Virus record (IMG/VR): IMGVR_UViG_3300028844_002207
Coordinates: 1-64,000 of that record
Origin: a virus
DNA length: 64,000 bases
Strand: one strand, 5' to 3'
The notes beneath the pieces were generated by a model. The model searched no databases and was not told where the DNA came from. It worked only from the letters and a program-made list of their open reading frames with translations. Positions 28,042-51,400 of the stretch are shown here, piece by piece (the stretch's first letter is position 1; every line of letters begins with the position of its first letter). Both the position numbers and the translations under genes were made by a program.

Positions 28042-28043
28042 TT

Positions 28044-30995: not shown

Positions 30996-31008
30996 ACCTA
31001 AAGGGTTT
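30994..31008 (+). terminator. Weak hairpin, possible attenuator
   Basis: AAACC and GGTTT pair around a five-base loop right at the stop of the upstream gene. No T-run follows, so termination would be inefficient at best. Downstream bases 31020-31045 are AT-rich (TTTGTAAACTTATATAATTATA) and could hold a weak promoter for the gene at 31055. Confidence 0.25.
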
Positions 31009-31054
31009 ATACAAAACACTTTGTAAACTTATATAATTATATTAATTTTACATT

Positions 31055-34000
31055 ATGGCAACATACGTTAAAGGAGCAGATACTTACTTACCAGACATTA
31101 AACCGTTTACACCGGATTATAAATTTCTGTCTGCCGTTCTACAAACTAGAACGGATAAGTATGATGCCAATTATAAAGCTACAAATGACTTATACAATAA
31201 AGTTGTTTATGCTGACTTATCAAGAGAGGATACTAAAGCGAGAAGAGATCAGTACGCTGAACAAATAGCTCCACAAATAGAACAAATATCAGGATTAGAT
31301 TTATCACTAGCTTCTAATGTAGATGCAGCTAAAGGTGTGTTTGCACCATTCTATGATGATGATATTACTGTCAAAGATATGGTCTTTACCTCAAGGTTTA
31401 GAGACCAATCTCAAAGAGCACAGAACTTATTAAACTCTCCTGACCAAACAGTACAAGAAAAATATTGGGATGTTGGTGTAAGAGGTATGCAATACAAAAT
31501 GGATGAATTTATTAATTCTGATCCAGATCAAGCATTAGGCATGGCTCTTCCTGATTATGTACCAAAAGCTAACTTATTTAAAATGAGTCAGCAAATGTTG
31601 GCTAACATGGATCCCCCATTAAAAATGAAGATGGATAGATTTGCCAAGCAACCAAATCCAAACTTTAATAAGAATTTACCAGAGTCACGTGAGAACAGAA
31701 AAGAAATAACTAATACTGATTGGATTATTACTGAACAAAATGGTTCTTTAGTTACTGGTGCAGCGTTACAACAAATAAGAAACACACTATTAGATAATCC
31801 ATCTGTACAGAAATCTTATCAAATGGAGGCTTATGTTTCAGGAATGGACTGGGCCACTCAAGCTGTTGAAAGTGGAGCTGCTGCATCTCTTAGTAATGGT
31901 CAAGAACTATGGGCTTCAGAAACCATCAAAAGAATTGAAGAAAGAAATATAGCAGAATTAAATAATGATGTTGAAACTTTACGTAAGTTAGAGACTTCTG
32001 CAGTAACATGGTCTAATTATAAAGGTCAAAATGGTCTTGTTCCTGGTAGTGAACTAGATAAATTAAATCAAGAACAACTATCTGATATTGAAAAATATAA
32101 ATTAGATATAGAAGCAAAAAAACAAATTGCTCAAGAAGTAAGTAGACCTACTCCAACAAATAAAAATCTGATTAATAAAGCATATAATTTATATATGCAA
32201 AGTAATATTATGTCAGATATGAAAGAATCCGCACAGGCTTGGAGTGCTAGAGATTACATTTATGAAATGAATCCAAATCAGTTTGCTGTTGATGAAAAGA
32301 AGTCTATGTGGAATATGGCTGAAATTAGAGCACGTGCAGCTAATCAACTTAATCTTGCAGCATATAATGCAAACAGAAGAGATGCTAATACAATGTTGGA
32401 TAAAGGTTATCAATATGATGCTGAGGGTAATCTTGTTCCATTACCTTGGGCTGAGGGTATGGGTGTCAATGGTGGTGGTGCCGCTAATGATTTATTTAGT
32501 GCATTAAGTAGTCCTGAATTTAGTATAAGTGATGATAATACAACAACATTTGCGGTGGATGAAGATGGAGAGCCAACAGCAAATTCAGATATTATTGGTG
32601 ATACACAAAAAGCTTATGCTGAACATGTACAAAGCGTTGGTAAAGATGAGATAAATGCATTATTAGGAACTGCTACACAACCCGGTATGCTACAATTAAT
32701 GAATCCAAAGGGGAACACGGCAGATGAAAATCAAACATATACTATAAATATTCCTGGTAGAGGAGAAGTAAATGGATCTATTGAGGACCTAAGACGTATG
32801 TTATCTGCTACTGTAAATAATGATGGTACAGGAGGATTAAAGTATTTAGATGGTATAACAGAACTTTATAATACTAATAAAGATAATTTTGTTAATACTA
32901 GACAACAAACAAAAGATGATATAAGAATAACTCAGGGTGATGATGCAGACATGTCTACTAGGTATGATGGATTATATAATAGAATGGTTGGGCCAAATGG
33001 AATTGAAACAAAGAGAAAGGCAGGTGATGTTTTTATAAGTAAGGCATATGAAGTTTATAATGAAGCCTTTGAAAATAATGATATTCTAAAAGCAACTACA
33101 ACAGGATCAACTTCTAATAAAAACATAGGGGGTATGCTTGAAGCAGGTATGCCAGGTAAGTTTGATCAGAACGGTATACCATATACAAAAGAAGAACATT
33201 TTCAAGAAGCTTTAAGAAGACTTAACGCTGGTGAATTAACTAATACTGATCAAGACTGGACAGTAGATGGTAGAGCCAATAAAGATTACAGGGTAACAGA
33301 AACGATGGGTAATTGGGATATGAATAAGGTTAGAGCAGCTTTTAATAGCAGCACACCTTTATTTTATGTAGATAGTCCAGATCAAGATGGAACAATGTTC
33401 ACAACTGAAGATACTGGTATACCTGCAGTACAAGCAATAAGAGGTGCTAGACCTATAGATATACCTAAACAAGCAAACAGAATTTCAAAGAGTGAACTTA
33501 GAGAAGAAGCAGGGAAAGTTTATGATGCTTTAACTACAAATTTAAATGCAGCTCTAACAGATAGAATGGATGCAGGTACTAATTCTGCTACATTTGAATC
33601 AATTAAGTTTGGTATTGATGGTGGCTATGCTGATGTAACAAATAATATTACTTTTGAATATGGATTTAATCCATTAGCTCCAGATTCAGATGCTTATAAT
33701 GAAGTAAAAAGCATGGCGCTTCAGATAGGTTCATTAAAGAAATCAGGTACACCGTATGGTATTGGTATAGGTAACTTAACTAATGAAGACCAGTTGGTGC
33801 AGAAAGATCCATTAGCAATGAAGGTATTTAATCTTTTAATGAAAGATGCACAAACCTGGGTTGGTAATCCTAAGAGATCCAACTCAGCTGCAATAGCACC
33901 TATATTTGATCTTGCATATAAATCAGTTTATGATATTGCTTCTAAAGGAGATAAAACTCATGCTGGTTTTGAAATAAGTAATATGGCAGAGTGGTTAGCA

Positions 34001-34522
34001 TCAAAAGTAAAAGGATCTTCAGCAGATGTTGCAAAACAGTTTGGTGCATTAACTACAGATGATATTGCTAGATTAAAAGGATTAGGAGAAAACAATGATG
34101 GTACAGGTATATTTATAGTATTTCCACAGTCAGATGATATAAACATTAAAGCAAGAAAGAATGATTATTTTTCTTCAACAGAAATAGATATTCTTGGTGG
34201 TGACAATAGTAGTTACGCTGAATACACAGTTCCTAATGATAATGGTATAACACCTACAGCTACATATAGAATTGCAAAAAATGGTACAGGTGATTATGAT
34301 TTAATAACAGAAATCAATAGGTATAACCCTTACCCAACAGACAAAGATCTACAAGCTAATTGGAGTGAGTATACAACATCAACAAATACTCATAAAATGG
34401 ATTTCTCACAAGGCTTGCCAGGAATTGATTTGCAAGTAAATCAAGTACAACAAACACTAGAAGAAATTAGAAGAAACAATCAGGCTCTTAGAAAAAAGGA
34501 TCAGGCAATACAAGGTAAATAA
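31055..34522 (+). CDS. Putative virion cargo protein, helical (1155 aa)
   Basis: The N-terminal region (FTPDYKFLSAVLQTRTDKYD, KVVYADLSREDTKARRDQYA, then SLASNVDAAKGVFAPFYDDD) is of a type I recall in the cargo block of crAss-like phages. The first 450 residues and the last 40 are strongly helical; the last 25 form a likely coiled coil (VQQTLEEIRRNNQALRKK). No catalytic motif, signal peptide or membrane segment is clear. It lies 14 bases upstream of the RNA polymerase giant with no terminator between, so they are co-expressed. A packaged protein ejected with the genome is the most likely role. Confidence 0.65.
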   Translation: MATYVKGADTYLPDIKPFTPDYKFLSAVLQTRTDKYDANYKATNDLYNKVVYADLSREDTKARRDQYAEQIAPQIEQISGLDLSLASNVDAAKGVFAPFYDDDITVKDMVFTSRFRDQSQRAQNLLNSPDQTVQEKYWDVGVRGMQYKMDEFINSDPDQALGMALPDYVPKANLFKMSQQMLANMDPPLKMKMDRFAKQPNPNFNKNLPESRENRKEITNTDWIITEQNGSLVTGAALQQIRNTLLDNPSVQKSYQMEAYVSGMDWATQAVESGAAASLSNGQELWASETIKRIEERNIAELNNDVETLRKLETSAVTWSNYKGQNGLVPGSELDKLNQEQLSDIEKYKLDIEAKKQIAQEVSRPTPTNKNLINKAYNLYMQSNIMSDMKESAQAWSARDYIYEMNPNQFAVDEKKSMWNMAEIRARAANQLNLAAYNANRRDANTMLDKGYQYDAEGNLVPLPWAEGMGVNGGGAANDLFSALSSPEFSISDDNTTTFAVDEDGEPTANSDIIGDTQKAYAEHVQSVGKDEINALLGTATQPGMLQLMNPKGNTADENQTYTINIPGRGEVNGSIEDLRRMLSATVNNDGTGGLKYLDGITELYNTNKDNFVNTRQQTKDDIRITQGDDADMSTRYDGLYNRMVGPNGIETKRKAGDVFISKAYEVYNEAFENNDILKATTTGSTSNKNIGGMLEAGMPGKFDQNGIPYTKEEHFQEALRRLNAGELTNTDQDWTVDGRANKDYRVTETMGNWDMNKVRAAFNSSTPLFYVDSPDQDGTMFTTEDTGIPAVQAIRGARPIDIPKQANRISKSELREEAGKVYDALTTNLNAALTDRMDAGTNSATFESIKFGIDGGYADVTNNITFEYGFNPLAPDSDAYNEVKSMALQIGSLKKSGTPYGIGIGNLTNEDQLVQKDPLAMKVFNLLMKDAQTWVGNPKRSNSAAIAPIFDLAYKSVYDIASKGDKTHAGFEISNMAEWLASKVKGSSADVAKQFGALTTDDIARLKGLGENNDGTGIFIVFPQSDDINIKARKNDYFSSTEIDILGGDNSSYAEYTVPNDNGITPTATYRIAKNGTGDYDLITEINRYNPYPTDKDLQANWSEYTTSTNTHKMDFSQGLPGIDLQVNQVQQTLEEIRRNNQALRKKDQAIQGK

Positions 34523-34536
34523 TAAATCAAAAGTAG

Positions 34537-37500
34537 ATGGAAAACGAATCTAATAAGCCATTAGCGCAAGAGATTAAGAATCAAGAAAGACCTGCCCCAA
34601 GTATAATACCTGAAGGGCAGTTCCGCTTTGAGCCAATTGCAGAAATGTTTGACTCTCCAGAGGAAAACTTTAATGACTATCTATTAAGTAGTGATTTAGC
34701 AGCTGATGATGTTTCAGGTGTAAATGAATACAAAGCTGAAATAGATAAGTATGGTATAGGAGCTATGGCCTCATTAGGAGTAGCTGTACCTAGTTTTGCA
34801 TCTGATACATATAACCCAAGATCTCAAGATCAACCTGCAGATAATGATTTTTCCCTGATTCAAAAAGCATTAACTTTAGAAAAAAAACCAATTTCAGAAA
34901 CTAGAATGGCTCCTATATTTTCAGGAATGAGACAGGGTCAATTTGAGAGATATTATAATCATCCTGAGTTTGATAAGTTAGGATTTTCTCCATACTCTAA
35001 TATGGAGAATTATTATAATGCAAATTCTACTATATGGGATGATATGACTAGAATGAGAGGTCAATGGATGTCTCTTGCTGGTACAGGATTAAATTCTGTA
35101 TATGGATCTTTGTTTAGTGGTGGAGATTATCTTGCTCCTGATTTTGAAGCTGCAACTGAGTTTGAAGACACTATGGGTATTTCATCATCTACAAGAGGTG
35201 GTGGCCTTGCTTTCTTCAATAATTTAGCAGCTAACTCTGCATATACATTTGGTATACTAAGTTCTATTGCTATTGAAGAGATTATACTTGCTGGTGCATC
35301 AGGATTATCAGGAGGAGCTTTAGCTGCACCTGCAGCTGTAAAGACTGCTTCAAATATTGGTAAAGGTGGGAAAGCTTTATATAGTTTTACTAAGCTATTT
35401 GATAGAACAAGAAAGATACTACAAAAAGCAAAAGAACTTGAGACAGCAAGAGATTTTTATAATGCTGCTGTTACAGGTGGAAAAATGACTCTTAATACAT
35501 TAGGTAAAGGCTTTACACCAAATACTCTGAAGGCATTCCAAAATATGAAGACAGCACAAAATGCTGGACAAAACATGACCAACCTAGCTAAAATGGGTAC
35601 TGGCTTTGGAGGTTTCTATAGAGATCTTAGAGCAGTAAACTTAGCAATGGCTGAAAGTAAGCTGGAGTCAGGGATGGTATATAATAAAGTTATGAAGCAA
35701 GGTCTTACAGATGCTAATAATTTTAGTGGAGGTCAAGGTATTACTGATAATAGAGATGTTAGTGCTGCAGCTAATCAAGCAGCATTCAAAACTATGTTAG
35801 GTAATGCACCTCTTATATATGCTAGTAACTGGTTTGTTATTGGTAATGCAATGGGTGGTTTTCAAAGAGGTATACAAAGATCTCTTGGTGCTACGTTTCA
35901 AAAGGGGATTAATAAAAACATTGTTAATACCGCAGGTAAAAAAGTTGTAAATGCTGCAGGTGAAGTTATCAAAAGCCCATTCAAGTATATAGGTGGTGGA
36001 TTTAAAAATACTGTAGCAAAAGTTAAAGCCGGTGGATTTAAAGGACTTGCTGGTAGTGGGGGTATAGCAATGCTTGATTACTTTGCTGCTAATGTTGCAG
36101 AAGGTATACAAGAGATTGGTCAAGAAGCTATCTCAGCTGCAACTGTAGGATACTATACAGAAATATTAAATAACCCTGCGCAAGGGGGAGAAGCTCTTAA
36201 GAATCAAATGATACTATCAGCAATGGGTGATCAGTTTTCATCACAAGGAGCAGGTGTATTCTTATCTGGTTTTTTAATGGGTGGTTTAGTAAGTGGTCCT
36301 CAAAAATTATTCTTTCAAGGTGTTCCTTCTATATATAATTATGGTTTGCAGGAAGCTGGAATTGGTTTAGCAAGTAAGTCTCAGAAAGAAGCATATACTG
36401 AGTATAAGACTAATAGAGAAACAATGATTAATAAAGTTGTTGAGTCTTATAACAAATCATGGGATTCACAAGCTATAGATCCATCTAGTTTATTTGACTT
36501 AAACAGATTGAACTTTATGGTTCAAAAAGAAGCTGCTGAGAATATGAGGAGTGCTCTTGACATGTTTAATTTTGTTGACAATGCAGATAGATCAAAGTTC
36601 CAACAATATTATACAATGTTTGCAGGTAATGGTTCACAGCATTTTAAAGATCAGTTAAAAGGATTTTTAGAATTAAGTGATGTAGAATTAGCTCAGGCAT
36701 TTCCTGGAGTATCTAATAAAGATAAGAAGGATGGTAAGTTAAGAGAACGTATTAATAATATGCTTGTAGGTATTGATAAGATGGAAGAGTCTTATAATCA
36801 AAACAAGGACAAATTTAAAAACCCATTTAACAAAAACAAGTTTAATCCTAAGACACAGCAAAGAGAATACATTAAGGAAATGCTTAATGAAGAAGCATAT
36901 GAACATGTACGTTATTTATACATGTTTACAAATGATGGATTTACTAGAGCATTAGAAAGAGCAGATAGTATCTATAATAAATTACAATCTGATCCTTTGT
37001 TTGATAAAATGTCTGCAAATGATGTAACTAATCTGCTTGATGAGAAATCAATTCAGAATGAGATAGACATGCTTAACCTTGAAGTGATTGCAACTGAAGG
37101 TGCAACTGAAGGTATTGGGGAATCTAACAAAACCAAAAGAGAAAAAATTAAAAGATTAAAAGCTATTCAAAAGATCATTTCTGATCCACAAAATAGATTT
37201 AAGAATGGAACCTTTAAAAGAAACAAACTTTTAAAAGGAAAGCTTAGAAATGAGTTTAGAAACTATATAAGATTTATGGCATCTTCTGCTGGTTCATTTG
37301 CGGATGAAGCAAAAATTGATGCTGCCTTAGAACAAATTGTTGACTACGGTGCATTAAAAGGAAGAGCACGTGTATATGATAAAGCTATTCAGTACATGCA
37401 AAATCCAGAAAAGTTTTCTGAGATTCAACAAAGACAGTATGAAGTAAACAAAGAGATATATAATCAACGTGCTAAGATAACAGAAGAAATGTTAAAGCAG

Positions 37501-40500
37501 TATGTAGATATAGTTGAGGCAAATGAACTAATAAATCAGTTAGGTAAGTTGGGTGTTTATCCAGCAATAGCACAAACAGAAATGTTTTTGAAGACTGGTA
37601 ATGCAGCTTTCTTGACAGATTTTTATGATGATAATGGTAAAATACAACCTGAAATTCATACAGTAGCATTTGGTCAAGTCCAAAGATTGTTAACTACATA
37701 TAAAGAAACTAGAGCAGACAATACTAAAGAGGATGATGCACCACAAACCGAAGAAGAAATTGCAATTGAAGAAACTGAAGAAACAAGATCTGCACTTGAT
37801 GTACTTTTAGAAAAGGCAGGTATAGATATAAAAATTGATGTAAGCACTAATAGTCCTTTATTAGTTAAGGCATTGGAGAGAGCCTATAAAAATTATAGAG
37901 CTAAGCAAGCAAGATTAGGCTTACCTATTTTAGATAGTACTGCGTGGATGAGTTCTGCTGAAGCAGTTAACATTAGAAATGTTGTTAATGCAATTAAAAA
38001 AGTATGGGCATCAGGAAAATCAGAGGTAGGAGTAGAAGGCACACTAGAATTTAATAATCCTCTTGGAACAGATGTAATAAAAGAAGATGTAGGATTAGAA
38101 GAGTTTTTACTGGACCCTGAAGTATTAATTAATAATCCAGTTATAACATCTATATTAAACCAATCAGGAGTTGATATGGCTGATGTAGTTGAGATTGCAG
38201 ATGTAAAGTTAAAAAAAGGTCAAGCTCTAGAAAACACACCACAAAGAAAATTCTATAAAGGCGGTGTTACTGCAGATATATATAAAATATCTGTAGTAGA
38301 TAATCAGACTGGAGAAATTGTAAAGATGTACAAGTTTTTAGATAAAAAAGGCAATGAACTTTCAGATGATATTATTGAGTTTTTAGATACCAACTTTAAA
38401 TCTGTTCAAGGAGTTTTCTTAGCAGACCAAGGTAAAATAGCTAAGAATGCTTTAGATGCACTAAATGCAAACCTTGTAGATTCATCAACTACTTTTGATT
38501 TTGATGGAGTAACAGGATTAACATATGGTCAAGTTATATATAAAGACGGTGTAAAATATATTGTTGTTCAAGATCCACGCTTTTCTAAAAAGTATGGTGC
38601 AAACCAAAAACTTAAAGTAATCAAAGAGTCTGATAACACAGGACCTTTTGCAGAAAGAAAGTTTTTGTATATACCGCAAGGAGAATTTAAAGGTAGATTT
38701 ACTTTAGAAGAAACTACATTTAATTTAATTCCAGATACGGTAACAAAAATTCAAACTAATGATTTGACTACCCTTTACCCTCATGTTAATTACACTGAAG
38801 GTGGTTCATCATCTGATAATGCCAAAGCAAGAGAAAGATATAATGCTATTCTTAGTATGTTATCTCCAGAAGAAATAGCCGGTTTACAGTTGGTTGTATC
38901 TCTTGATTCAAGAGGAGGAACTAATACTGGATCTTACACTGCTAAAAATAGAGAAGGTAAAGTATATAAAGAAGCTAATCCATTAATAGATAGATTAGTA
39001 AGTAAGTACGTTGTTGGTATACGTATAGCTAATCCTGCATTACGAGAAACTATTAATGCAAAGTTAGCTGAGATGGGTATTGAACCATCTAATAGTCCGG
39101 AAGGAGTATTTGCTTATTTAAATAATGAATCATTTTTAATTAGAGATCAACGTACTGGCTCCCCTATAGATCCAAGATCTATGACTGCGGAACAAGCAAG
39201 CAATGTTATTCTAGCAAAAAAAGGTTTAAATAAAGAACAAAAAGCAGAAGCTCTTGAACAAGTACATAGAGCATTTGCATTGAATGCATTAGTTGTTCAA
39301 ACATTTGATAATTTAAATGTGGGAGATGAGGTTGTTTACTTTATGGCAGACTCAAAAGATATACCTTTTAGTATAAACTTAAATCTTAAAGGAGGAAGAG
39401 TTGCATATGCTAAAGCAAGAGAAAGAGTATATCCTCTACCAATGGATGCGTTGTTATATGATACTGCAGATGAAGCGGGTAACTTATTTATTTTTGATTT
39501 AAAATATGATAAAGAAACTGGTGAAAGAACTTATGACTTTACTACAAATTTAAAAGGTAAAGAAAGAGATGCTTTGGAAGATGCAATTGAAACACAATTA
39601 AAAAAACAAAATCAATGGGATAATCTATTGGATGCTGGTAAAGGCACAGATAGATATCTTGCTATGGTAAGATTGCCAAATGGAACATATGCAAAAGTAA
39701 ATTTAAAACCGGTTGAATATACTAATACTGAATTAGAAGAACTATATGTAGATGTAGTTGAGGCAGCTAAAAGAATAGGTGCTATTAAGGATTCAGAAAA
39801 AAGCATGGAGGAAGCTGCAAAGTATAATCAAGAATTATCAGAAAGATTATTTTTAAGTAGCAGACCTGGTAACTTGATTGAACTTAATGTGGGTCCTGAT
39901 GGGTCTATCTTTATTTCTTTAGATAATAAAGGCAGTAAAACAAGCATGAACGTTGGTTTAAAGCCTGAAGAAGTTAATGCAAAAGATCTATCAGCTAAAG
40001 ATGTAATTCAAACTTTACTTACAAATTATAATACTGATCCGGCTGTAGAAAAATTAAGTGCAGATTTAAAAAATAAAAACTTCAGAAAGTCTTTTGCTCA
40101 AGGTGTTGCACCTCAAGAAATATATGATAATAGTACTACAGAGGTATTACCAGAAGTAGTACAAAATCAAACAATAGAAGTTTCAGCTGAGTCAGATGCT
40201 ATACAACTATCACGTGATATAGCGTACATACCTAATGCAACTAGAAGTGATGAGATAGAGTTGAAATCAGCAATGGGTAGAGAAAGACCTACAGCTGAAG
40301 AAGCTGATGAGTCTGTATCTGATATGGAAGATGCTGAATTTGAAGAAATGGTTGACAGAGTTGATAGTAATAACTTTGGAGACTATCAAAAAAATCTTGA
40401 TCATATTGTAAATGCAATACTGAGAGGTATTGAGCTAAGTCCACGTGAACAAGAGTTAATGAAAAATGATGTCTTCCGTCAATCAGTTACTTATGCTGTT

Positions 40501-43500
40501 GCAGTTCAAGGAGGACCTGGTGCATTGGCTATTGAAAAGCCTACAGGAAAAACAAAACTTGAAACTATTAAAGATGAACTAATAGCTCTAAAAGAAAAGT
40601 TAGAAGAAGGTCTAACTACTAAAAAAGATAAAGTAAAAGCTATTAGAGGAAGTAAAGAGTATCAAGATCTATTAGCTAAAAGAAAAAAATTAGAGCGTGG
40701 TGCTAACAAATTAGTACAAGCTACATCAGAGACTGAACGTGTAGAAGACTATAATGAATTTTTAGATTGGGCAAGTGAAAACCTGCCGGATATAATTGGT
40801 GTAGAGGATTTAATAGTTCTTGCTGATAATGGTGTTTCTAACGGATATGAAAGAGTAGGTGCATTTGTTTTGAATTTAGATAGGATAGCTAATGGTGTAG
40901 ATGTAAGCGGTATTATATATACAAGTCCACTTAGCCCATACAAGTATCATGAAGCGTTTCACAGTATTTTTAGAACTGTTCTTACCCAAGAACAAATTAA
41001 TAAATATAGAAGCATTGCAAAAGCAGAAGTAAAAGCAAAGTACGGATCTAAATATAAGAGTGAATTACAAAGATTTAGAAATTCAGCTGAGCAATATCAG
41101 GAAATGACTGATGTTGAATTAGAAAATGAATTTGCTGAAGAATATTTAGCGGATGAGTTTGAGGCATTTAAAAAGAACCCAAGATCTTCTAAAACTAATA
41201 CTGAGATAAAATCATTCTTTACTAAGTTAATAGAATGGATTAAAGGTGTTTTCTCTAAGTACTCTTCTGTAGAGTTACTTACATTATATGAAAACATAGA
41301 TGCTGGTAAATTTAAAAATGCACCTGTACAACTTAATGAATTTACTCAATTAGAAGACTCATTAGGTGGGTCATTAAGTATTGCTAATGCATTAGTGAGA
41401 TATGATACAGCTTCTAAAGTAGTTGATGCAGGTGAGCCATCAGGTGAATTATATGTTGACTCAGATGTAATAGACCCTTTGATTAGATCAATGGCGGGTA
41501 TGTTTATAACAAGAGTAAATGAACTTTCATTAACTGAAAAGTCATATAACCCTACTGAAATATATAATGAATTAGAAGCAGACTTTATGACAATGCTTGA
41601 TCCGGAAGGAGAAGCTAATAAAGGGTTTTCTGGTGCCAAAAAACTATATCTTGAACAGATAGATATGGCATTTATTAATTACCCAGAAGATATTAAAAAA
41701 GAAGTTTTTGGTTTGGTTAATGTTATTTCTGATATGGATCAGGCTAATCAATTAAAAATAGAAAACGTTGAGGAAACATCAGGTGTAAGAAGTACAAGTG
41801 ATTTTAATAAAGACGCAGCTGAGATAGGTGGTTTTAATTCTTTGTCATATAAAGTTAGATCTTATATAGCAACTACAACTATGGTTGACACTGACTTTTT
41901 TGGAAAGACAGAGTTAACGGAGGGAGAACCTTTAATAGTACCGGTTAAGTTTCTAGAGGCATACACTACTATATTAAAATCAGTTTCAAATGAAAGTGAT
42001 CCTGTGGTTATGCTTAAAAGAATGTATTCATATTCTAGATTAAACCCACAAGGTAAAGCAGTTGTAGATAAATTATTTAATGATACTGGTTTAACAATAG
42101 AAGCATTAACTTCTACTGAACCTTTCAGAGATGTTAAAGATGGTTCTTTACTGATATCAATATTAAAAGGGTTTGAAAACTATAAGGTTGATTATATATT
42201 TAATGAGAGAGATTCAAATGGAAACTTATTAATATATACTGCCTCTGAGCGTGATGATATTAATGCTCAACTAGATGAATGGGCCCAAGCATACATAACA
42301 AAAAAGAAACTTGCTACAGCTAATCCAAACAGAGTAAAAGACTTTCTAAGATTAACAAAGGATATGAAGGAAGCTATGACATCATATCCAGAAGATACAT
42401 CTATGGTATATCAAATGTCAAGAGAGTTTTCTCAAAAGATGTTTGACCTAATAGGTATTAGATTAAGTCCTAATTATATTGCTTATAGTATTGCTAAAAG
42501 TAAAACTGAAGAAGATTTAAAAAATAGCCCTGAGCTAAAAGCATTAGCTGATGGATATACAGAGGATGGCATTACAAACAGTTTGCTAGATCAACTATAT
42601 GATGGGTTGAATAAAAAAGCTGATCTGTTCTCTACTAAAGAAGATGGTATGGCATCAAGACTTACTAAATTAAGTCTTTCTAATGCTGCATTTGATGAAT
42701 CTATTGGTTCATCTACATTTATAAATCCAAATGGTGATATAGTATATGCACATCAATTGCCTACATATCATTTAAAGAGTGTTGCTGCATTAAATAACAA
42801 ATCAAAAATTGATGAGTTAAGCAATGATGAGTTTTTATCAAATAATTATTTGCTTAAAAATGAAGCTTTTTTAAATCTATCTAATACAAATAGACTTAAG
42901 GTAATAAGAGTTGCTGGTAGTAAAATTAAAGAGCAGATTTCTAATAGTGCAGCTGATCAAGCAAGTGAAGATATATTAAATGAATCTGTATCAAAGAATA
43001 AATCAACTCAAAGCTTTGGGGAATTTACCCCACAAGAGTTTGCAATAGCCCTAATAAATAATTATGTATCAAACTTTAACAGAAGAACAGGTAAGGTTGA
43101 AACTGTAATTGGTCAAGGAGCACAAGAAATTGCTATAGCTCCAGTATTTTTAAGAGTAATGGAAGCAGCAAATACAGGAGACCTTGTTCCTTTACCTGTA
43201 ATAAAAGCAGTGACAAACGTTAATGGTAATGTTGTTCTTACGCCTCAAGCTATAAATGTATTTATAGATAGCATAGAAGCTGAGTTTGATAGAATAAGCA
43301 GAGAAACATTAGCATTTGAAACTGAGCCGGGTAATATTGAAGGGTTTAATAATGAAAAAAGTGATAGGGCTGATAAAGGAAGAGCTTTTAAATTTACTAA
43401 TAACGGTCTACTACTTTCTGAAACAACTAAGCAAGCATTGCTAAAAGTAGTTTTAGACAAAGCTAAACTGGGTGAAACTGTTTCATTTAAACAAGCTGTT

Positions 43501-46500
43501 TCATTGGCTGTTGGAGTAACTAATTCATCTATAAGATCTGAAGTTAATAGTAGCTTAGAAGATAGTTTCAAAGACTTTAATGATGTAATTACATCTTTGA
43601 AAGCAAAAGATAATTTATCTACTCAAGTATTACAAGGGTTGACTATTGCATCAGGTGTTTCAAGATCTGCTGTTGAATTATCACAACTTAAACTAAATCT
43701 TACTGATGATGCTGCATATAACTTAAAGCAAATATTTTTTAATAATTATATTAACTCTAAGTCAATAAATGATTTATTACTTGGTGACCAAGCTGTTTCT
43801 TTAAAAGATATGGTTGATAAGGTTAAAAGAGCCAAGCTACAAAATGCAGCATACTATAGTGCATATAGCCAAGTCACTGATCCAAGTAAAGGGATAACAC
43901 ATGCTAGTACTAACTTTGATTTGTATCCATTCCAGGATCCAACAGCAAAGTCTGATTTTACAGGAAATGATATTGATTTAGCTGATGCACAAGTTTATAT
44001 TACTTCTAAAGGTATACGCTATTCAACATTTGCATTTGGAAGGTTAAGTCCTGCAATGGCAAGCATGTTAAATGATATTGATATGGGTCAAACCATTAAT
44101 GCAGACAGAGCATGGGGATCTCAAAATGACTCAATTAATTTAGCAAAAAAACAAGACTTTATAAACTCTAAGAAGTTTGTATACATGGATGGTAAGACAG
44201 CTTTAAAAATGTCTGTTACTGTATTAACTAAAGAGTATACATCTAATAGAAATAAAGAAACCGGTATATGGGAAGCCAAACCTAATATGCAGCAGCTTCA
44301 TTATTTGCGTGAACAAATGGAAGCTAATGAAGAAGCAAATCAAAACTTTGCTATGGCGGCACCAGTTTCAGCAATAAAAATGTTGAAGCAAGGTATAAAC
44401 CCACTTGAGTCAGGTGTATTTGATACAACACAAAATTTAACATCTATAAATTTAGATACTTCATATCTAGGTCTTCAGGTTGTTAACCCATCTAATAAGC
44501 TTATAGTAACTGATATGAATCAGATCAAAGAGCTTATAACTGGTGAACAAGATGGTTCTACAGAAATATTTATAGAAGGAAGCCCTGAACTTAAAACAGT
44601 TGGTGATGTCAGAGACGCATACAATAATGCAGTTGGACAAAGGGTAATCCTAAAGTATAAGAATAAAAGGAACTTAATATTTAGTTTTGACACAGCTCTT
44701 GATGAGTTTGAAATATCTAAACAAAAAGGTGCCATAACGCCTAACCTTGCTGCATTTTTATTAGAAGCACAAAAAGGATTGATGGCATCAGGAGCAGCAT
44801 CAAACTTACTTGAATTTTTTGCTGTTGAAGATGGAGTTCAAAAGTATAATTTAAATAGTCCAATTACAGCTAAGAAGTTTGAACAAATGTTCTTAACATA
44901 CTTCAGTAAAGGTACAATAAGAGAAAAGGTGCCTGGAACATCAGTTGCTTTATTATCTTCATTTGGTCATAAAATTTATAGACGTGTCTATGAAATGGAA
45001 AATGGTATGCCAAGTAGGTCTGAAGTAGTAAGAGAAAGTTCTTATGCTGGAGAAAGCCTAGAAGATATAAATAACCTTGTTGATGGTAAGCATGACGGAG
45101 TTCTTGTTCTAGATGTACTTAGAACTGGGGTGATGGAATATAAAAACAATGATGTTAAAAATGGTGAGCCAACAGGAGTAAGATATAGTGAAACTATTAT
45201 GCCTCCTATGTCTAGAGATGTAATGGAACTTATTCAAGAAAATAAGGATGCTCTTATACCAGATGTGATAGCCAAAATGTTTGGAGTACGTATACCTACA
45301 CAAGATAAACACTCTGCTGTAAATATTAGAATTGTTGATTTTATGCCTGTGTATTATGGTTCTACAGCTATATTTCCTAAAGAACTTGTAGAAATATCAG
45401 GAGCAGATTTTGATATTGATAAGGTTTATGCATTAATGAAAGAATACTACTTAGATAGTAATAAAAACTTTAAAGCTTACGGAGACGGGAATAGTTATTT
45501 TGAGTATGTGAAATACATGAACTTAAAATCATCTGAACCAAATAACATATTTAGTACAGCATCTTCATTATATAAAGATAAAACACTTGCCATAAGAAGA
45601 GATAACGCTTTAAGTGCCGCAGAACAGACTAGGGTTACTGATGATCAAGGTGTAAATAGGATTAATGAAGAAGCTCTTAGAGCAATGTTGATATTGGGTT
45701 TACCTGTTACTCAGGCACAATTCAAATCATACGTTAAAAAACACGGGTCACCAAACGAAGCAGTATTAAACAATAATATTTTAGACTATAGATATACTCT
45801 AGCTGGTAATACTGGTGTAACTGGTGAATCATTAAAGTCTATTGATCAAGATAACGGAGAACGCAAGTCAGATTTACCTGTAGCTTATCAAGCAGCTGAC
45901 TTAAAAATGCTAGAAGAATTATTTAATGAGCTTTCTAACCTTGAGGGTGTGGAATTATTTGCAAGTAGAAAGGATTCTGATGTAGATATTGACACACTTC
46001 ATGGTATGATAAAAGCTTTTGAAGCAAATAAAGGTGCTGCAATTGGAGCTATTGTTAAGCCTAATTTAGCATTGAGTTTACTACGTGAGTATAATATTAA
46101 ATTAGATAGACCTATTAAATTTAATGGTAATACATATGATGGCTTTACTAAGGACAAAATAAACGGAGATAGAATACAAGATATTATTTCTACTCTAGTT
46201 ACAATGGAGACTGATAATGCAAAAGAACGTTTAATAGCAAAATTTGGTCTTAATATAAAAGCTGTTGGGCTTGTTGGTAATATGGTATCTTTAGGGGTTC
46301 CTTTAAGAACGGCAATTCTTTTAATAAATTCAGCTGAAGTAAGAGATCTTTATGATCAAGCATTAAACAAAGATGATCAATTTGATGCTGGCTTTAATAA
46401 ATTATTAGCAAACCGTATAAACGCAGTAGCTGCATTAGCTCAAAAACAAAAAGAAAAGACCGGTAATAAAGCTCCATTTGTAAAACTAACTGATGAATTT

Positions 46501-48387
46501 TTAGAATCAGCAGTAGACAGTACAGAAGATTTAACACCTAATGAAAGACTGCAAATATTATTTTTACTTGATAGATTTAATAAGGTTGCAGATTTTACAG
46601 TTAAGATAAATAAAATAACAAGTCTTACACAAGGTTTACCAAGCTCTATACCAGAGATGAAAGATGATATTGAAACCATCACTTCTTTGTTTGATAAAGA
46701 TGCACCTATGGATGTTAGACCTATATATGGAAAGAGTAGTAAGACTTGGCAAAGTAAGTACTTACAGATATTTGGTCAAATACATAATGATCTTTTACCT
46801 AACACTATTCTAACTATGAGTCAAGACTTCAATGATATTTTGAAGCCTACTTATAAAGAAATGAATACTGACTCTAAAGGGTTTGATAATAAAACAAAAA
46901 ATGGTGTTGAACAAGACTTGTTATCTTACTTAACAATAAAGTCATATCAACATCTTCTTAATAATAGTTCTGGTAATTCTTCTGTAGAGAATACTTTGCT
47001 CTATCCAAATGTTGTAGGTGTCACAAACTTATCATTGATAAAAACAATTGAGGACTTACAATTTAAAAGAGCCAAAGAAGGTGCAGAACCTAATTATTTC
47101 TTAGATAATTTTATAGGTACACAGTATGCTGGGACTGATGGTAATAATACAGGGTTAAATATTGTAAAGGCAGATACATGGAGAAGATTAAATAAAGCTA
47201 ATAAAATTGATTTGCAAACATCATTTGCAAAACTATATGGTTCACTTGACACAAGGGCAGTAGCAGAAGATATTCTACACTACATGATGGTTAAAGATGG
47301 ATTGCAACTTAAGTACGGAAGTCTTATGAGTGCAATGAGTCCTTTTATCATGAATAAATATCTTAAGAATGTTGGTGCTGTAGAGAGTGCACTTAAAGGA
47401 CAAGTAGAATTTGAAAGTGTCTTTGGTATATCTAAGGAAGATGTAATGAAAGAATTTAAATATGGATACTTACAATCTAATATTGTTGGTCCATTGCTCC
47501 GCACGTATGAAGCTAGTAATTTAGATGATGGTGTTAAATTTGATCCTATTTCTACACCTAATACACTTACTATTACAACTGAAAGTTTTGATCATGTGAA
47601 TGCAAAAGAATTTGTAAGAGTCAAAACAGAAATACAAGGTAAAGATACTTATAAATTGTTTAGACTGCTTGCAAAAGATGACGCTAGCTCTAAAGTTACT
47701 GAATACTCTCAGGTCTCATCAATGGGATCTAACCAGCAGTTTGGTGGTGGGTTTGTTGGAGGACCAAGATTAACTTATGAGCAAGCAAGAAAAGTTGGAA
47801 GAGGGACTACACAAAATAGTTTACCTGAAGAAAGAGCAGCAGATCCAATTTTAGATACTGAACTTTCACCAGATGAATTTGCTCCACTTGTTGAGTATCC
47901 AGTTGACACTAATCAAGGTGCTATACAAGACGTTAATGAAGTACTGAACTCTGAGTCAGCAATAGTAAATCAAACTACAGACTCTGTAACAGTTAAAGCG
48001 GATGTAGATGCACCAGAAACAAATATAGCTGACATGGCACAAATAATGGCTGAGTTGTCTAAGAACTCAGATAGTCTTATCTTTGATGAAACGGGTAATG
48101 CTATTATAGAAGACACCGATATGAGCATTCCGGAAGCCACTGAACTTGAGCAACAAGAACAAGAACAATTAGAACTTGATCTTTTTGCTTCAGAAGAAAT
48201 TTCAGAAGCTTCAAGCTTAGTAGAATGGTGGGATGCAAATGTAGAAGGTAATAGTGTTGCTTTAGAAAAGCTTTCTGGAGAAAATATAAAAACACTTGAC
48301 GATGCAATAGCTTTATATGGTGATTTATTTTCACAAACAGAACAAGGAGAACAAGATATAATTGAAAGACTTAAATGTCTTATATAA
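34537..48387 (+). CDS. Giant virion RNA polymerase-bearing protein with zincin domain (4616 aa)
   Basis: The polymerase signature is clear. R3585-I-P-T-Q, then NIRIVDFMPVYYG, then G-A-D3624-F-D3626-I-D3628 reproduces the order of cellular beta-prime (RAPTLHR ... P ... NADFDGD), with the crAss-like variant DFDID whose three Asp bind the catalytic Mg. A crAss-like phage polymerase of this class (phi14:2 gp66) is packaged in the virion and transcribes early genes. Earlier, H2138-E-A-F-H2142 with E2201/E2202 forms an intact zincin metalloprotease site, followed by the amphipathic segment FFTKLIEWIKGVF. The N-terminal 700 residues hold Gly/Ala-rich hydrophobic segments (GILSSIAIEEIILAG, FLSGFLMGGLV), perhaps membrane-active during ejection. 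The C-terminus is acidic and Gln-rich. Other regions are unassigned. The frame is continuous over 13.8 kb. Confidence 0.85.
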   Translation: MENESNKPLAQEIKNQERPAPSIIPEGQFRFEPIAEMFDSPEENFNDYLLSSDLAADDVSGVNEYKAEIDKYGIGAMASLGVAVPSFASDTYNPRSQDQPADNDFSLIQKALTLEKKPISETRMAPIFSGMRQGQFERYYNHPEFDKLGFSPYSNMENYYNANSTIWDDMTRMRGQWMSLAGTGLNSVYGSLFSGGDYLAPDFEAATEFEDTMGISSSTRGGGLAFFNNLAANSAYTFGILSSIAIEEIILAGASGLSGGALAAPAAVKTASNIGKGGKALYSFTKLFDRTRKILQKAKELETARDFYNAAVTGGKMTLNTLGKGFTPNTLKAFQNMKTAQNAGQNMTNLAKMGTGFGGFYRDLRAVNLAMAESKLESGMVYNKVMKQGLTDANNFSGGQGITDNRDVSAAANQAAFKTMLGNAPLIYASNWFVIGNAMGGFQRGIQRSLGATFQKGINKNIVNTAGKKVVNAAGEVIKSPFKYIGGGFKNTVAKVKAGGFKGLAGSGGIAMLDYFAANVAEGIQEIGQEAISAATVGYYTEILNNPAQGGEALKNQMILSAMGDQFSSQGAGVFLSGFLMGGLVSGPQKLFFQGVPSIYNYGLQEAGIGLASKSQKEAYTEYKTNRETMINKVVESYNKSWDSQAIDPSSLFDLNRLNFMVQKEAAENMRSALDMFNFVDNADRSKFQQYYTMFAGNGSQHFKDQLKGFLELSDVELAQAFPGVSNKDKKDGKLRERINNMLVGIDKMEESYNQNKDKFKNPFNKNKFNPKTQQREYIKEMLNEEAYEHVRYLYMFTNDGFTRALERADSIYNKLQSDPLFDKMSANDVTNLLDEKSIQNEIDMLNLEVIATEGATEGIGESNKTKREKIKRLKAIQKIISDPQNRFKNGTFKRNKLLKGKLRNEFRNYIRFMASSAGSFADEAKIDAALEQIVDYGALKGRARVYDKAIQYMQNPEKFSEIQQRQYEVNKEIYNQRAKITEEMLKQYVDIVEANELINQLGKLGVYPAIAQTEMFLKTGNAAFLTDFYDDNGKIQPEIHTVAFGQVQRLLTTYKETRADNTKEDDAPQTEEEIAIEETEETRSALDVLLEKAGIDIKIDVSTNSPLLVKALERAYKNYRAKQARLGLPILDSTAWMSSAEAVNIRNVVNAIKKVWASGKSEVGVEGTLEFNNPLGTDVIKEDVGLEEFLLDPEVLINNPVITSILNQSGVDMADVVEIADVKLKKGQALENTPQRKFYKGGVTADIYKISVVDNQTGEIVKMYKFLDKKGNELSDDIIEFLDTNFKSVQGVFLADQGKIAKNALDALNANLVDSSTTFDFDGVTGLTYGQVIYKDGVKYIVVQDPRFSKKYGANQKLKVIKESDNTGPFAERKFLYIPQGEFKGRFTLEETTFNLIPDTVTKIQTNDLTTLYPHVNYTEGGSSSDNAKARERYNAILSMLSPEEIAGLQLVVSLDSRGGTNTGSYTAKNREGKVYKEANPLIDRLVSKYVVGIRIANPALRETINAKLAEMGIEPSNSPEGVFAYLNNESFLIRDQRTGSPIDPRSMTAEQASNVILAKKGLNKEQKAEALEQVHRAFALNALVVQTFDNLNVGDEVVYFMADSKDIPFSINLNLKGGRVAYAKARERVYPLPMDALLYDTADEAGNLFIFDLKYDKETGERTYDFTTNLKGKERDALEDAIETQLKKQNQWDNLLDAGKGTDRYLAMVRLPNGTYAKVNLKPVEYTNTELEELYVDVVEAAKRIGAIKDSEKSMEEAAKYNQELSERLFLSSRPGNLIELNVGPDGSIFISLDNKGSKTSMNVGLKPEEVNAKDLSAKDVIQTLLTNYNTDPAVEKLSADLKNKNFRKSFAQGVAPQEIYDNSTTEVLPEVVQNQTIEVSAESDAIQLSRDIAYIPNATRSDEIELKSAMGRERPTAEEADESVSDMEDAEFEEMVDRVDSNNFGDYQKNLDHIVNAILRGIELSPREQELMKNDVFRQSVTYAVAVQGGPGALAIEKPTGKTKLETIKDELIALKEKLEEGLTTKKDKVKAIRGSKEYQDLLAKRKKLERGANKLVQATSETERVEDYNEFLDWASENLPDIIGVEDLIVLADNGVSNGYERVGAFVLNLDRIANGVDVSGIIYTSPLSPYKYHEAFHSIFRTVLTQEQINKYRSIAKAEVKAKYGSKYKSELQRFRNSAEQYQEMTDVELENEFAEEYLADEFEAFKKNPRSSKTNTEIKSFFTKLIEWIKGVFSKYSSVELLTLYENIDAGKFKNAPVQLNEFTQLEDSLGGSLSIANALVRYDTASKVVDAGEPSGELYVDSDVIDPLIRSMAGMFITRVNELSLTEKSYNPTEIYNELEADFMTMLDPEGEANKGFSGAKKLYLEQIDMAFINYPEDIKKEVFGLVNVISDMDQANQLKIENVEETSGVRSTSDFNKDAAEIGGFNSLSYKVRSYIATTTMVDTDFFGKTELTEGEPLIVPVKFLEAYTTILKSVSNESDPVVMLKRMYSYSRLNPQGKAVVDKLFNDTGLTIEALTSTEPFRDVKDGSLLISILKGFENYKVDYIFNERDSNGNLLIYTASERDDINAQLDEWAQAYITKKKLATANPNRVKDFLRLTKDMKEAMTSYPEDTSMVYQMSREFSQKMFDLIGIRLSPNYIAYSIAKSKTEEDLKNSPELKALADGYTEDGITNSLLDQLYDGLNKKADLFSTKEDGMASRLTKLSLSNAAFDESIGSSTFINPNGDIVYAHQLPTYHLKSVAALNNKSKIDELSNDEFLSNNYLLKNEAFLNLSNTNRLKVIRVAGSKIKEQISNSAADQASEDILNESVSKNKSTQSFGEFTPQEFAIALINNYVSNFNRRTGKVETVIGQGAQEIAIAPVFLRVMEAANTGDLVPLPVIKAVTNVNGNVVLTPQAINVFIDSIEAEFDRISRETLAFETEPGNIEGFNNEKSDRADKGRAFKFTNNGLLLSETTKQALLKVVLDKAKLGETVSFKQAVSLAVGVTNSSIRSEVNSSLEDSFKDFNDVITSLKAKDNLSTQVLQGLTIASGVSRSAVELSQLKLNLTDDAAYNLKQIFFNNYINSKSINDLLLGDQAVSLKDMVDKVKRAKLQNAAYYSAYSQVTDPSKGITHASTNFDLYPFQDPTAKSDFTGNDIDLADAQVYITSKGIRYSTFAFGRLSPAMASMLNDIDMGQTINADRAWGSQNDSINLAKKQDFINSKKFVYMDGKTALKMSVTVLTKEYTSNRNKETGIWEAKPNMQQLHYLREQMEANEEANQNFAMAAPVSAIKMLKQGINPLESGVFDTTQNLTSINLDTSYLGLQVVNPSNKLIVTDMNQIKELITGEQDGSTEIFIEGSPELKTVGDVRDAYNNAVGQRVILKYKNKRNLIFSFDTALDEFEISKQKGAITPNLAAFLLEAQKGLMASGAASNLLEFFAVEDGVQKYNLNSPITAKKFEQMFLTYFSKGTIREKVPGTSVALLSSFGHKIYRRVYEMENGMPSRSEVVRESSYAGESLEDINNLVDGKHDGVLVLDVLRTGVMEYKNNDVKNGEPTGVRYSETIMPPMSRDVMELIQENKDALIPDVIAKMFGVRIPTQDKHSAVNIRIVDFMPVYYGSTAIFPKELVEISGADFDIDKVYALMKEYYLDSNKNFKAYGDGNSYFEYVKYMNLKSSEPNNIFSTASSLYKDKTLAIRRDNALSAAEQTRVTDDQGVNRINEEALRAMLILGLPVTQAQFKSYVKKHGSPNEAVLNNNILDYRYTLAGNTGVTGESLKSIDQDNGERKSDLPVAYQAADLKMLEELFNELSNLEGVELFASRKDSDVDIDTLHGMIKAFEANKGAAIGAIVKPNLALSLLREYNIKLDRPIKFNGNTYDGFTKDKINGDRIQDIISTLVTMETDNAKERLIAKFGLNIKAVGLVGNMVSLGVPLRTAILLINSAEVRDLYDQALNKDDQFDAGFNKLLANRINAVAALAQKQKEKTGNKAPFVKLTDEFLESAVDSTEDLTPNERLQILFLLDRFNKVADFTVKINKITSLTQGLPSSIPEMKDDIETITSLFDKDAPMDVRPIYGKSSKTWQSKYLQIFGQIHNDLLPNTILTMSQDFNDILKPTYKEMNTDSKGFDNKTKNGVEQDLLSYLTIKSYQHLLNNSSGNSSVENTLLYPNVVGVTNLSLIKTIEDLQFKRAKEGAEPNYFLDNFIGTQYAGTDGNNTGLNIVKADTWRRLNKANKIDLQTSFAKLYGSLDTRAVAEDILHYMMVKDGLQLKYGSLMSAMSPFIMNKYLKNVGAVESALKGQVEFESVFGISKEDVMKEFKYGYLQSNIVGPLLRTYEASNLDDGVKFDPISTPNTLTITTESFDHVNAKEFVRVKTEIQGKDTYKLFRLLAKDDASSKVTEYSQVSSMGSNQQFGGGFVGGPRLTYEQARKVGRGTTQNSLPEERAADPILDTELSPDEFAPLVEYPVDTNQGAIQDVNEVLNSESAIVNQTTDSVTVKADVDAPETNIADMAQIMAELSKNSDSLIFDETGNAIIEDTDMSIPEATELEQQEQEQLELDLFASEEISEASSLVEWWDANVEGNSVALEKLSGENIKTLDDAIALYGDLFSQTEQGEQDIIERLKCLI

Positions 48388-48402: not shown

Positions 48403-51400
48403 ATGGCTAAATGTTATAATAGAAATGATCCGGGATACCAAGCATTAAAGGATGAATATGGTTCTGATATCAAAACGTCTAAAGTTATTAATGACTGGCA
48501 ACGTGTTAATGATTCTGATGTGTTTCCTAGTGTTGCCCAAGCTCAGACAATGGTTAGGGATCAAAACATTGCATTTTCACTAAAGACTCAAGCTTTTGGT
48601 AAAAGTGTTCTTGACAATTTAAGAAGAGAAAGAATAGGAAGTAATTTAGCTGGTCAGTTTTTAATTAATAATTCTAATCCTAATACTCAATCATATGATG
48701 AAGCCTTTTTAGAAAGTAATCTAAAAAGATTTTACAGGTATTTAGACATTAATAATATACCAAGAGAATCCTTCTCTGTAACAAGAACACCAAAGAGTTA
48801 TAGAATAGAAGCTAATAATGATATATTTTCAGCCAGAGATATACTAGAAAAATCAAGGTCTTGGGATACTAACAGATCTAGAGCTGTAGTCATGCATCTT
48901 AAGAGAATGTTTCCGCAGGTACAAGTTAAAATGTTGTCTGTTGCTCAAGCTAAAGTAATGTATGAATCATTACCAAAAACTAAAACCAACAATGTTGCTT
49001 TCAATGAAGTAAATTCTTTTTATATGGATGGTGTAGCTTATCTAATAAAAGGTAGAGTTACAGATGAAATAGCTATTGAAGAAATGCTGCATCCTTTTAT
49101 AGATGCAATAAAGATGGATAATGAAGAACTGTTTAATTCACTACTTGATGAAGCAGTTAAGAATTTTCCTGAGTTAACCGCACAAATTGAAGATGCTTAC
49201 AATAGCAGTACAAGAAATTTCAGTGATACTGAAAGAGATCTTGAAATTGTAACGCAAGCATTATCAAGACACTTCAAAAAAGAATATGAAACTACACCAA
49301 CAAAAGGCTTCTTAGCAAAAGTTAAAGAGGTTATTGAATGGTTTAAAGGTGTAATAGAAAACTTAAACAAATACATTACTGGAAGAGAACTTCCGGTATC
49401 AGCTATTAAGCCAGGTACAACACTTAGTGATGTAGCTAAATTACTTAATACAGAAGGTATACAGTTTAAATTAGAAAAAAGAGTAGATGGTAAACTTAGA
49501 TATAGTTTATCTCCAGCTAAAGAAATACAAATTAAAGATGCATTAGAAAGAGCTAATGATACACAGAAGCCTATTATAATGCAGTTGTTTAATGTAGCAC
49601 AGAGTGAGAACTCAGGTATAGTTGACTCTCTCTCAGCATCAGTAAAGGATGCAGCTGAAGGAGATTCTATTGTCACACTTAATAAAGAAGACCATACATA
49701 TATAAACTCTAATGATTCTGAAAAAGTATATACATCAGTAACTACAGCAATAAAAGGAAAGCTTTCAAAAGATAAACAAATTGCCCATCAAATAAATTTA
49801 GACATTGGTAATGAAGTAGATACATTGTTAGATGGTGTTATTGCAAATCTTTCTTTTGAAGATTCATATGCTGCATTAGAAACAAATAATATATCTAAAG
49901 AGGCAGCCAAAGACACATATGATACTTTAGGTAGCATTATGGATAGTCTAAAAATGAAAGGAGCAATTGTTTTATCTCAAGTTGTTTTGTTTGATGAAGC
50001 ATCTAAGATGGCAGGTACAGCAGATGTCTTTATTATAGATCAACATGGTAGAGTTAATATCATGGATCTTAAGACTACAAAGAATGAACTGAGTAAAGAG
50101 GTTCCACTTAATGATAAAAAAGGAAAACGTTTAGGAAATCAGTATAAAGAGAGATTCTATGCTTTAGAAAATGATAGTGTTTTAAAACAGCAAGGGTTAT
50201 CTACTGAACTTTCTACAGAACAACAGCATAATTTACAGGTAAATGTTTATAGAAGAATGGCAGAAAACATGGGGTACGAAGTATCTTATGATGAATGGGC
50301 AGCATCTACAATACATTTTAAAGTAGGTATAGAAGGCACGGGAGTTGATCAAGTATTTGATGGTTCAATAAACTTTGATAGATGGGTTCCTCATCCAATA
50401 AGCCAAAACCTTAATTTAGTTGATGCACTTGTACCAGAAGCAATAACTTCTTATCAAAAAAGTAAGTTAGAACAAGAACAGGAAGGATCATATAATAAAA
50501 TATGGAATGGTAAAGACCAAGTAGATGAAACTACTGAAGCAGATAAAAATGCAGCAGAAAATTATGATGAATATAATGCAGCCGCAGGTTTATTAGATAC
50601 ATATCAAAAAGCTCTTATTGAAAAAAGAGATATGATTCCTATGTTGAAGTCCAATATATATATGGAATCAACAAAAGAGAATGAGATTGATCAAATATCT
50701 AAAACAATAGCATATATAAATTTAGCTATGGCTGGAGGTGTGAAAGGTCAATCCACAGCTTTATCTGAAGTACTATTAGATGCATTATCACAAGTAAAAG
50801 ATTTTAGAAATTACATTGATGATCCTAAAAATATAAACTCCCCAGAGTATGTTTCTTATGTATTGAACTTTGATAAGTATATGAAGACATTTGAAGGTTT
50901 GTTTATACTTAATGATTTGAAAGGATTAAACAAATCTCAAAAGAATCTAATCCTATCATTACAACAACAATTTAATTTACTTAGTGGTGCTGGTACTGAC
51001 ACAGGAGGAATAGTAGGTACTGCATTAAAAGATTATGTGAAAGAAATGGTTAGGTTGAAATCAAGCAATGATTTTGGAGGGAAGGACAGTTTGTTTACTG
51101 AAAAAGATCTAGAGCTTTTAATGGAAAAAGCTGCAGATATAAGTGATACAGAATATCAAACCAAGGATTTAGCTACTTCTCCTGACATCTTGTTGGCAAC
51201 AATGGATAAGATAAGAAAAGCGCAAAATCAAAAATTACTTGATTTGGTTGCTCAAAGGGAAACAGTTATTAGAGCAGCAGGTCAAAAGCTTGCTAAACTA
51301 TCACCTGAACTAAAACTTGATAAGCTTTATGATTTCATGTTGGAGTTTGATGCAGACGGTACATTTAATGGTAGATATGTAACAAAAGTAGGTGAGCAAT

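Follow-up and report, generated by a model that had tools for sequence, protein, structure and literature searches.

Cysteines at the split gene boundaries of a zincin-RNA polymerase block in Crassvirales and related viruses

The window (the whole stretch of DNA analysed, 64,000 nucleotides, positions 1 to 64,000 of IMG/VR record IMGVR_UViG_3300028844_002207) is part of a 90.6-kb virus record. It encodes tail proteins, a 1766-aa protein, three proteins of 915, 983 and 1155 aa, a giant protein and a 1927-aa protein. The zincin side of the giant protein is designated A, its polymerase side B, and the downstream protein C. The features concerned are the following.

25294..34522, + strand: three more proteins, probably cargo, of 915, 983 and 1155 aa, with no cysteine
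34537..48387, + strand: fused protein A-B, 4616 aa; A is gp47-like and zincin-bearing, B is a virion RNA polymerase like gp50 and phi14:2 gp66
40948..40962, + strand: HEAFH zinc-binding site, residues 2138-2142
41137..41142, + strand: residues 2201-2202, a pair of Glu invariant in relatives that may supply the third zinc ligand
43774..47346, + strand: RNA polymerase core, residues 3080-4270, whose predicted structure matches 6VR4
45289..45300, + strand: RIPT motif, residues 3585-3588
45400..45420, + strand: GADFDID catalytic motif, residues 3622-3628
48376..48378, + strand: TGT codon of Cys4614, third residue from the C terminus and sole cysteine of the 4616-aa protein
48403..54186, + strand: protein C, 1927 aa, like crAss001 gp49 and phi14:2 gp076
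48412..48414, + strand: TGT codon of Cys4, sole cysteine of protein C and proposed partner of Cys4614
49078..49098, + strand: EEMLHPF, degenerate zincin-like motif of protein C, first His changed to Glu in all relatives
50014..50082, + strand: PD-(D/E)xK nuclease-like motif of protein C, recognized by eye

The original prediction of a 4616-aa ORF carrying both HEAFH and a beta-prime-type GADFDID motif is confirmed, both being read in one ORF in which HEAFH is the sole HExxH. The motifs stand above chance, the catalytic residues of both being invariant in up to 39 non-redundant sequences. H2138, E2139, H2142, E2201 and E2202 are unchanged in 38 of 38 non-redundant relatives, which upholds the proposed intact site and downstream Glu pair ahead of the polymerase motif; the site reads HEAFH in 37 relatives and is of the HESFH type in the rest. 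D3624, D3626, D3628, R3585 and P3587 are invariant in 39 non-redundant relatives, and position 3588 is S or T. Both motifs lie within one ORF in every uninterrupted relative among the fetched loci (4374-5202 aa). The A-B fusion is kept in about 88 environmental relatives, and at least 290 IMG/VR stretches encode relatives of the polymerase core. The split ORFs of L028 and L065 were attributed to frame errors, their near relatives being intact. A domain with an IYVFGDN-like motif is inserted near the C terminus of the giant protein in L004 and L018-L025 (after window residue 4321-4441). An intein was considered for the longer relatives and, for L004, rejected, its extra stretch being a C-terminal insert after residue 4441 with no intein marks seen. 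The premise that known crAss-like virion polymerases are far shorter is incomplete: it holds for phi14:2 (2180 aa), but crAssphage gp44 has 4070 aa and the Suoliviridae ORFs 4464-5801 aa. According to a review, virion polymerases reach about 6000 aa (PMC10136315).

Searches of Pfam, PHROGs and, with the single sequence, PDB gave no match for the giant protein. The AlphaFold2 model of residues 3080-4270 has a pLDDT of 81 and a pTM of 0.81. A structure search with this model returned 6VR4, the phi14:2 virion polymerase, first (E 9.9e-27, probability 1.00, TM 0.61 over the query), followed by P23-45 gp96 and QDE-1. The profile of the same residues matches 6VR4 by sequence (E 6e-12), with GADFDID aligned to its DFDIDK, and also matches crAss001 gp50, crAssphage gp44 and phi14:2 gp077. 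The beta-prime-like polymerase core proposed earlier is borne out by these structure and profile matches, and the expected fold is present in the predicted structure, with 6VR4 as its best match. By profile and predicted model, the polymerase identity of B is confirmed. The phi14:2 homologue was found in virions by mass spectrometry, as were crAss001 gp47, gp50 and gp49 (PMC10172136). By analogy with these packaged homologues, the window protein is probably a virion protein.

The zincin region is homologous to the end of crAss001 gp47 (profile, E 4e-14). In the predicted model HEAFH lies on a confident helix and the Glu pair on a later one. The model of this region is weak (pLDDT 59) and, used as a query, gave no PDB match at E < 0.001; the best sequence match, the zincin 6FPC, is likewise weak (E 0.14). 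The protease activity of the region is putative. The A-B join is placed near residue 2320, since crAss001 gp47 ends about 184 residues after its HEAFH. The profile of protein C matches crAss001 gp49, the end of crAssphage gp44 and phi14:2 gp076. The zincin-like site of protein C is inactivated (EE-x-LH) in all 88 relatives; its intact counterparts are HEIMH in phi14:2 gp076 and HEFMH in Lbo-JY46. The PD-(D/E)xK-like motif is degraded in some relatives, e.g., L087 and L097; a PD-(D/E)xK domain has been reported for crAss transcription proteins (PMC7886860).

The same three parts are partitioned differently among related phages. The window has A-B and C, crAssphage has A and B-C, while phi14:2 and crAss001 keep A, B and C apart. 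The phi14:2 polymerase (gp66 of the literature, gp077 of KC821624; PDB 6VR4) has the same two-barrel single-chain core with DFDID and is colinear with window B in sequence and structure; it differs in its length of 2180 aa, in being separate from A and C and in having cysteines only at residues 3 and 2179. In crAssphage, the neighbouring gp45 (RNAP associated protein fused with a zincin protease) and gp44 (RNAP catalytic subunit fused with an unknown subunit) present the same parts in the same order, but the zincin and polymerase are split, B and C are fused, and the cysteine pair lies at the A/B boundary. In crAss001, gp47, gp50 and gp49 are the homologues of A, B and C, but they are encoded by three genes on two strands and have two cysteine pairs. 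The fusions of Suoliviridae (cr50_1 with 4774 aa, cr52_1, cr130_1, cr4_1 and cr1_1) show the same partition into A-B and then C, an HEAFH-to-DFDID spacing of 1489 in cr50_1 against 1486 in the window, and cysteines at the A-B end and the C start as in the window. They differ in belonging to gut phages, some of which read TAG as an amino acid, and have been annotated as hypothetical protein, DNA helicase, DprA-like or nuclear-pore-like. The zincin-polymerase fusion of the window is thus conserved but already known in kind, because Suoliviridae have this partition. Outside these phages, Thermus phage P23-45 gp96 is likewise a two-barrel polymerase within a giant virion protein (PMC10770324), but it is fused to the tape measure protein.

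The giant protein contains one cysteine in 4616 aa, whereas 52 would be expected if it had the cysteine content of the replication genes in the record (1.13%); the other genes of the record average about 1%. Exactly one cysteine, among the last five residues, is present in 87 of 88 giant-protein relatives, and the 88th is a frameshift whose tail, IKKCYLK*, carries the cysteine. All 88 C proteins likewise have a single cysteine, at residue 3-4. These lone cysteines at the facing ends of the two proteins prompted the prediction that a split boundary can be recognized by cysteines at the adjoining termini.

This prediction holds across the relatives. A/B and B/C splits are flanked by cysteine on both sides, and fused boundaries are without both. 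Twenty named genomes were compared, comprising Intestiviridae, Crevaviridae, Steigviridae, Suoliviridae, phi17:2, Fpv3, cyanophage Lbo-JY46 and the window. Of 52 boundary termini, 51 have a cysteine among the nine residues nearest the end, against none of 40 free chain ends and one of 48 termini of upstream cargo proteins. The cleanest case is phi14:2, in which the sole cysteine of gp078 is its last residue, that of gp076 is residue 3, and gp077 has just two, at 3 and 2179. The C-terminal cysteine of crAss001 gp50 lies 9 residues from the end. One N-terminal cysteine of cr110_1 falls at residue 17 of the annotated start, and an internal MSC start fits.

A test set of eighty loci was found with the phi14:2 polymerase, and its ORFs were classed by length and motif position only, with the termini unused. 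Where B stands alone, an N-terminal cysteine is present in 34/34 and a C-terminal one in 32/34, both misses being broken ORFs. Fused A-B proteins have it at the C terminus (8/8) and never at the N terminus (0/8); B-C proteins show the reverse (N-terminal 3/3, C-terminal 0/3). The complete A-B-C fusions have none at either end (0/4 and 0/4); these proteins of 5220-5639 aa are free of cysteine throughout. The classes did not take in nine ORFs that fell outside the length limits and were later treated as B alone; eight of them have both cysteines and one (L199) is broken. The upstream neighbour ends in cysteine in all 38 loci with the A/B split and in none of the 10 with the fusion. The cysteine total is mostly 2(k-1), where k is the number of proteins per chain, i.e., four, two or none; with the broken L183 and L188 left out, this was the case, within the test-set group, in 19 of 22 sets of three proteins, 9 of 10 with two and 4 of 4 with one.

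On a tree of 80 cores the A/B state changes 8 times and the B/C state 4 times, numbers that are approximate because the tree comes from a short search and has some long branches. The cysteines follow the split or fused state in 80/80 at each boundary, three broken ORFs being left out and an N-terminal limit of 18 residues being used for the named genomes because of cr110_1. Independent pairs on the tree are concordant in 7/7 (A/B) and 4/4 (B/C) cases. The rule also holds with A on the opposite strand from B and C (crAss001, DAC15, cr85 and cr106), and the use of cysteine codons follows that of the genome. On both grounds a nucleotide signal coupling the genes at their joins was rejected. The rule is highly regular, includes the window locus and is apparently new, no description of it having been found in the literature searched, which did not include the phi14:2 polymerase paper.

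Cysteines on both sides of the breaks, none at free or fused ends and the purging of the others are what interchain disulfides would lead one to expect. The favoured explanation, to which we assign a probability of roughly 0.6, is that A, B and C form one linear chain in the virion, joined by disulfides at the gene breaks and released in the host. Such a chain would have about 6000 residues. Each gene break would be bridged by the C-terminal cysteine of the upstream protein and a cysteine at residue 3-7 of the next, the remaining cysteines having been purged to avoid mispairing. The window has one remaining boundary and hence one pair, so that Cys4614 of A-B would bond with Cys4 of C. Ejection from the head would be ordered, with the chain partly unfolded; the reducing host cytoplasm would then free the parts and B would transcribe the early genes. 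Interchain disulfides are established in crAss001 virions for tail and portal-vertex proteins (PMC10172136). Virions are assembled in a reducing cytoplasm, so the bond would form late or need catalysis. Against the disulfide, gut phages of anaerobes keep some internal cysteines while the terminal ones are still present. Internal cysteines are almost absent in phages of aerobic waters, whereas gut phages have several (up to 34 per chain); this difference is consistent with an oxidation hazard, although lineage is a confounding factor.

Other readings of the cysteines have to be weighed against the disulfide. A shared metal ion bound by the paired terminal cysteines, giving a non-covalent link of consecutive proteins, would account for the pairing at split boundaries and its loss on fusion equally well. 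Each side offers a single cysteine, no conserved His or second cysteine is seen in the printed termini, and the depletion of other cysteines fits thiol chemistry better, so a metal clasp seems unlikely. About the same low credence is given to end tags read by a packaging or ejection factor with no link between the proteins. Tags would explain a cysteine at every split end of the block, but they never occur on the first end of A or the last end of C (0/40), and other cargo proteins are as a rule without them (1/48). Absence from the free ends and, mostly, from other cargo makes the cysteine a property of internal boundaries. The N4 virion polymerase, likewise a giant ejected polymerase, is a single chain of the T7 type, and we know of no terminal-cysteine rule for it. 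N4-like virion polymerases are devoid of cysteine (in LUZ7 and LIT1/PEV2), which has been linked to passage through the periplasm and disulfide formation there (PMC3715699). Mere avoidance of cysteine in ejected proteins, with the termini tolerating it, would agree with this and with the cysteine-free cargo of 915, 983 and 1155 aa. It does not explain why the cysteines are always present at split boundaries and always missing from fused ones (80/80 each) and, already contradicted by this pattern, is very improbable.

A polyprotein cut by its own protease, as the original prediction had it, is disfavoured. In such a scheme the zincin would sever A from B at their join in the 4616-aa protein, ahead of packaging or in its course, and HEAFH with its Glu pair is indeed intact, invariant and close to the point at which relatives have a gene boundary. 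However, HExxH is absent from all four complete A-B-C fusions, where a polyprotease would be most needed. The parts are separate genes in many relatives, some genomes with unfused A and B also have an intact zincin, and the zincin site changes its place: it lies in A in 7/7 A-B fusions with both parts seen and in C in 20/24 three-gene sets. Moreover, the separate parts bear paired terminal cysteines as if to be rejoined. Self-processing of this kind is thus quite improbable and cleavage at the joins before packaging is unlikely, but the zincin may act after ejection, with cleavage following delivery into the host. A cysteine switch on the zincin was also rejected, as gp078 and gp077 of phi14:2 have terminal cysteines without any HExxH.

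The rule bears on the way in which such phages deliver a bulky polymerase of several parts from the capsid, through a narrow tail, to the cytoplasm as a working enzyme. It leads to a direct, testable claim on how this transcription machine is held together: it tells which proteins form one chain and in what order, and offers a chemical switch by which the parts could be held together outside and released inside the host. It also explains the wide variation of gene boundaries in the block between families and serves as a sequence-based criterion by which the parts can be located and put in order in genomes that lack annotation. For Crassvirales and their relatives in general, the early-transcription machine is on balance probably carried as a reversible polyprotein: disulfides would connect the terminal cysteines of separately made parts, the linked chain would be ejected whole and the reducing host cytoplasm would free its members. 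If this is true, gene fusion and the cysteine pair are interchangeable means to the same join.

TerL and portal proteins homologous to those of Crassvirales (23-27% identity) were found in 16/16 long relatives; none were seen in the window record itself. This distant homology points to a deep lineage. The major capsid protein was found in 2 of the 16. The portal of the clade (L135) is closest, at 32%, to that of the Leptolyngbya cyanophage Lbo-JY46 (PP438436), which is not filed in Crassvirales. The large proteins of Lbo-JY46 obey the cysteine rule, and no DFDxD polymerase was found in those examined. Fpv3 gp30 (L145:23913-25709) and Lbo_385 (L141:39334-41358) are upstream cargo proteins starting with MKKKC. 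The 1766-aa virion-side protein of the window (19933-25233) has SLT transglycosylase, LysM and YkuD L,D-transpeptidase domains. In crAssphage (L031 24471-25738), thioredoxin and truncated thioredoxin genes lie just past the polymerase gene; TRX is present there in Rudgehvirus too, and a link to disulfide handling is possible. Relatives L116-L119 come from contigs that are assigned to MAGs of Pseudomonadales, Campylobacteraceae and Sphingomonadaceae and are probably phage contigs binned with these. A GroEL chaperonin (PHROG E 7e-179) is encoded at L126:1908-3536 and is perhaps relevant to the folding of giant proteins.
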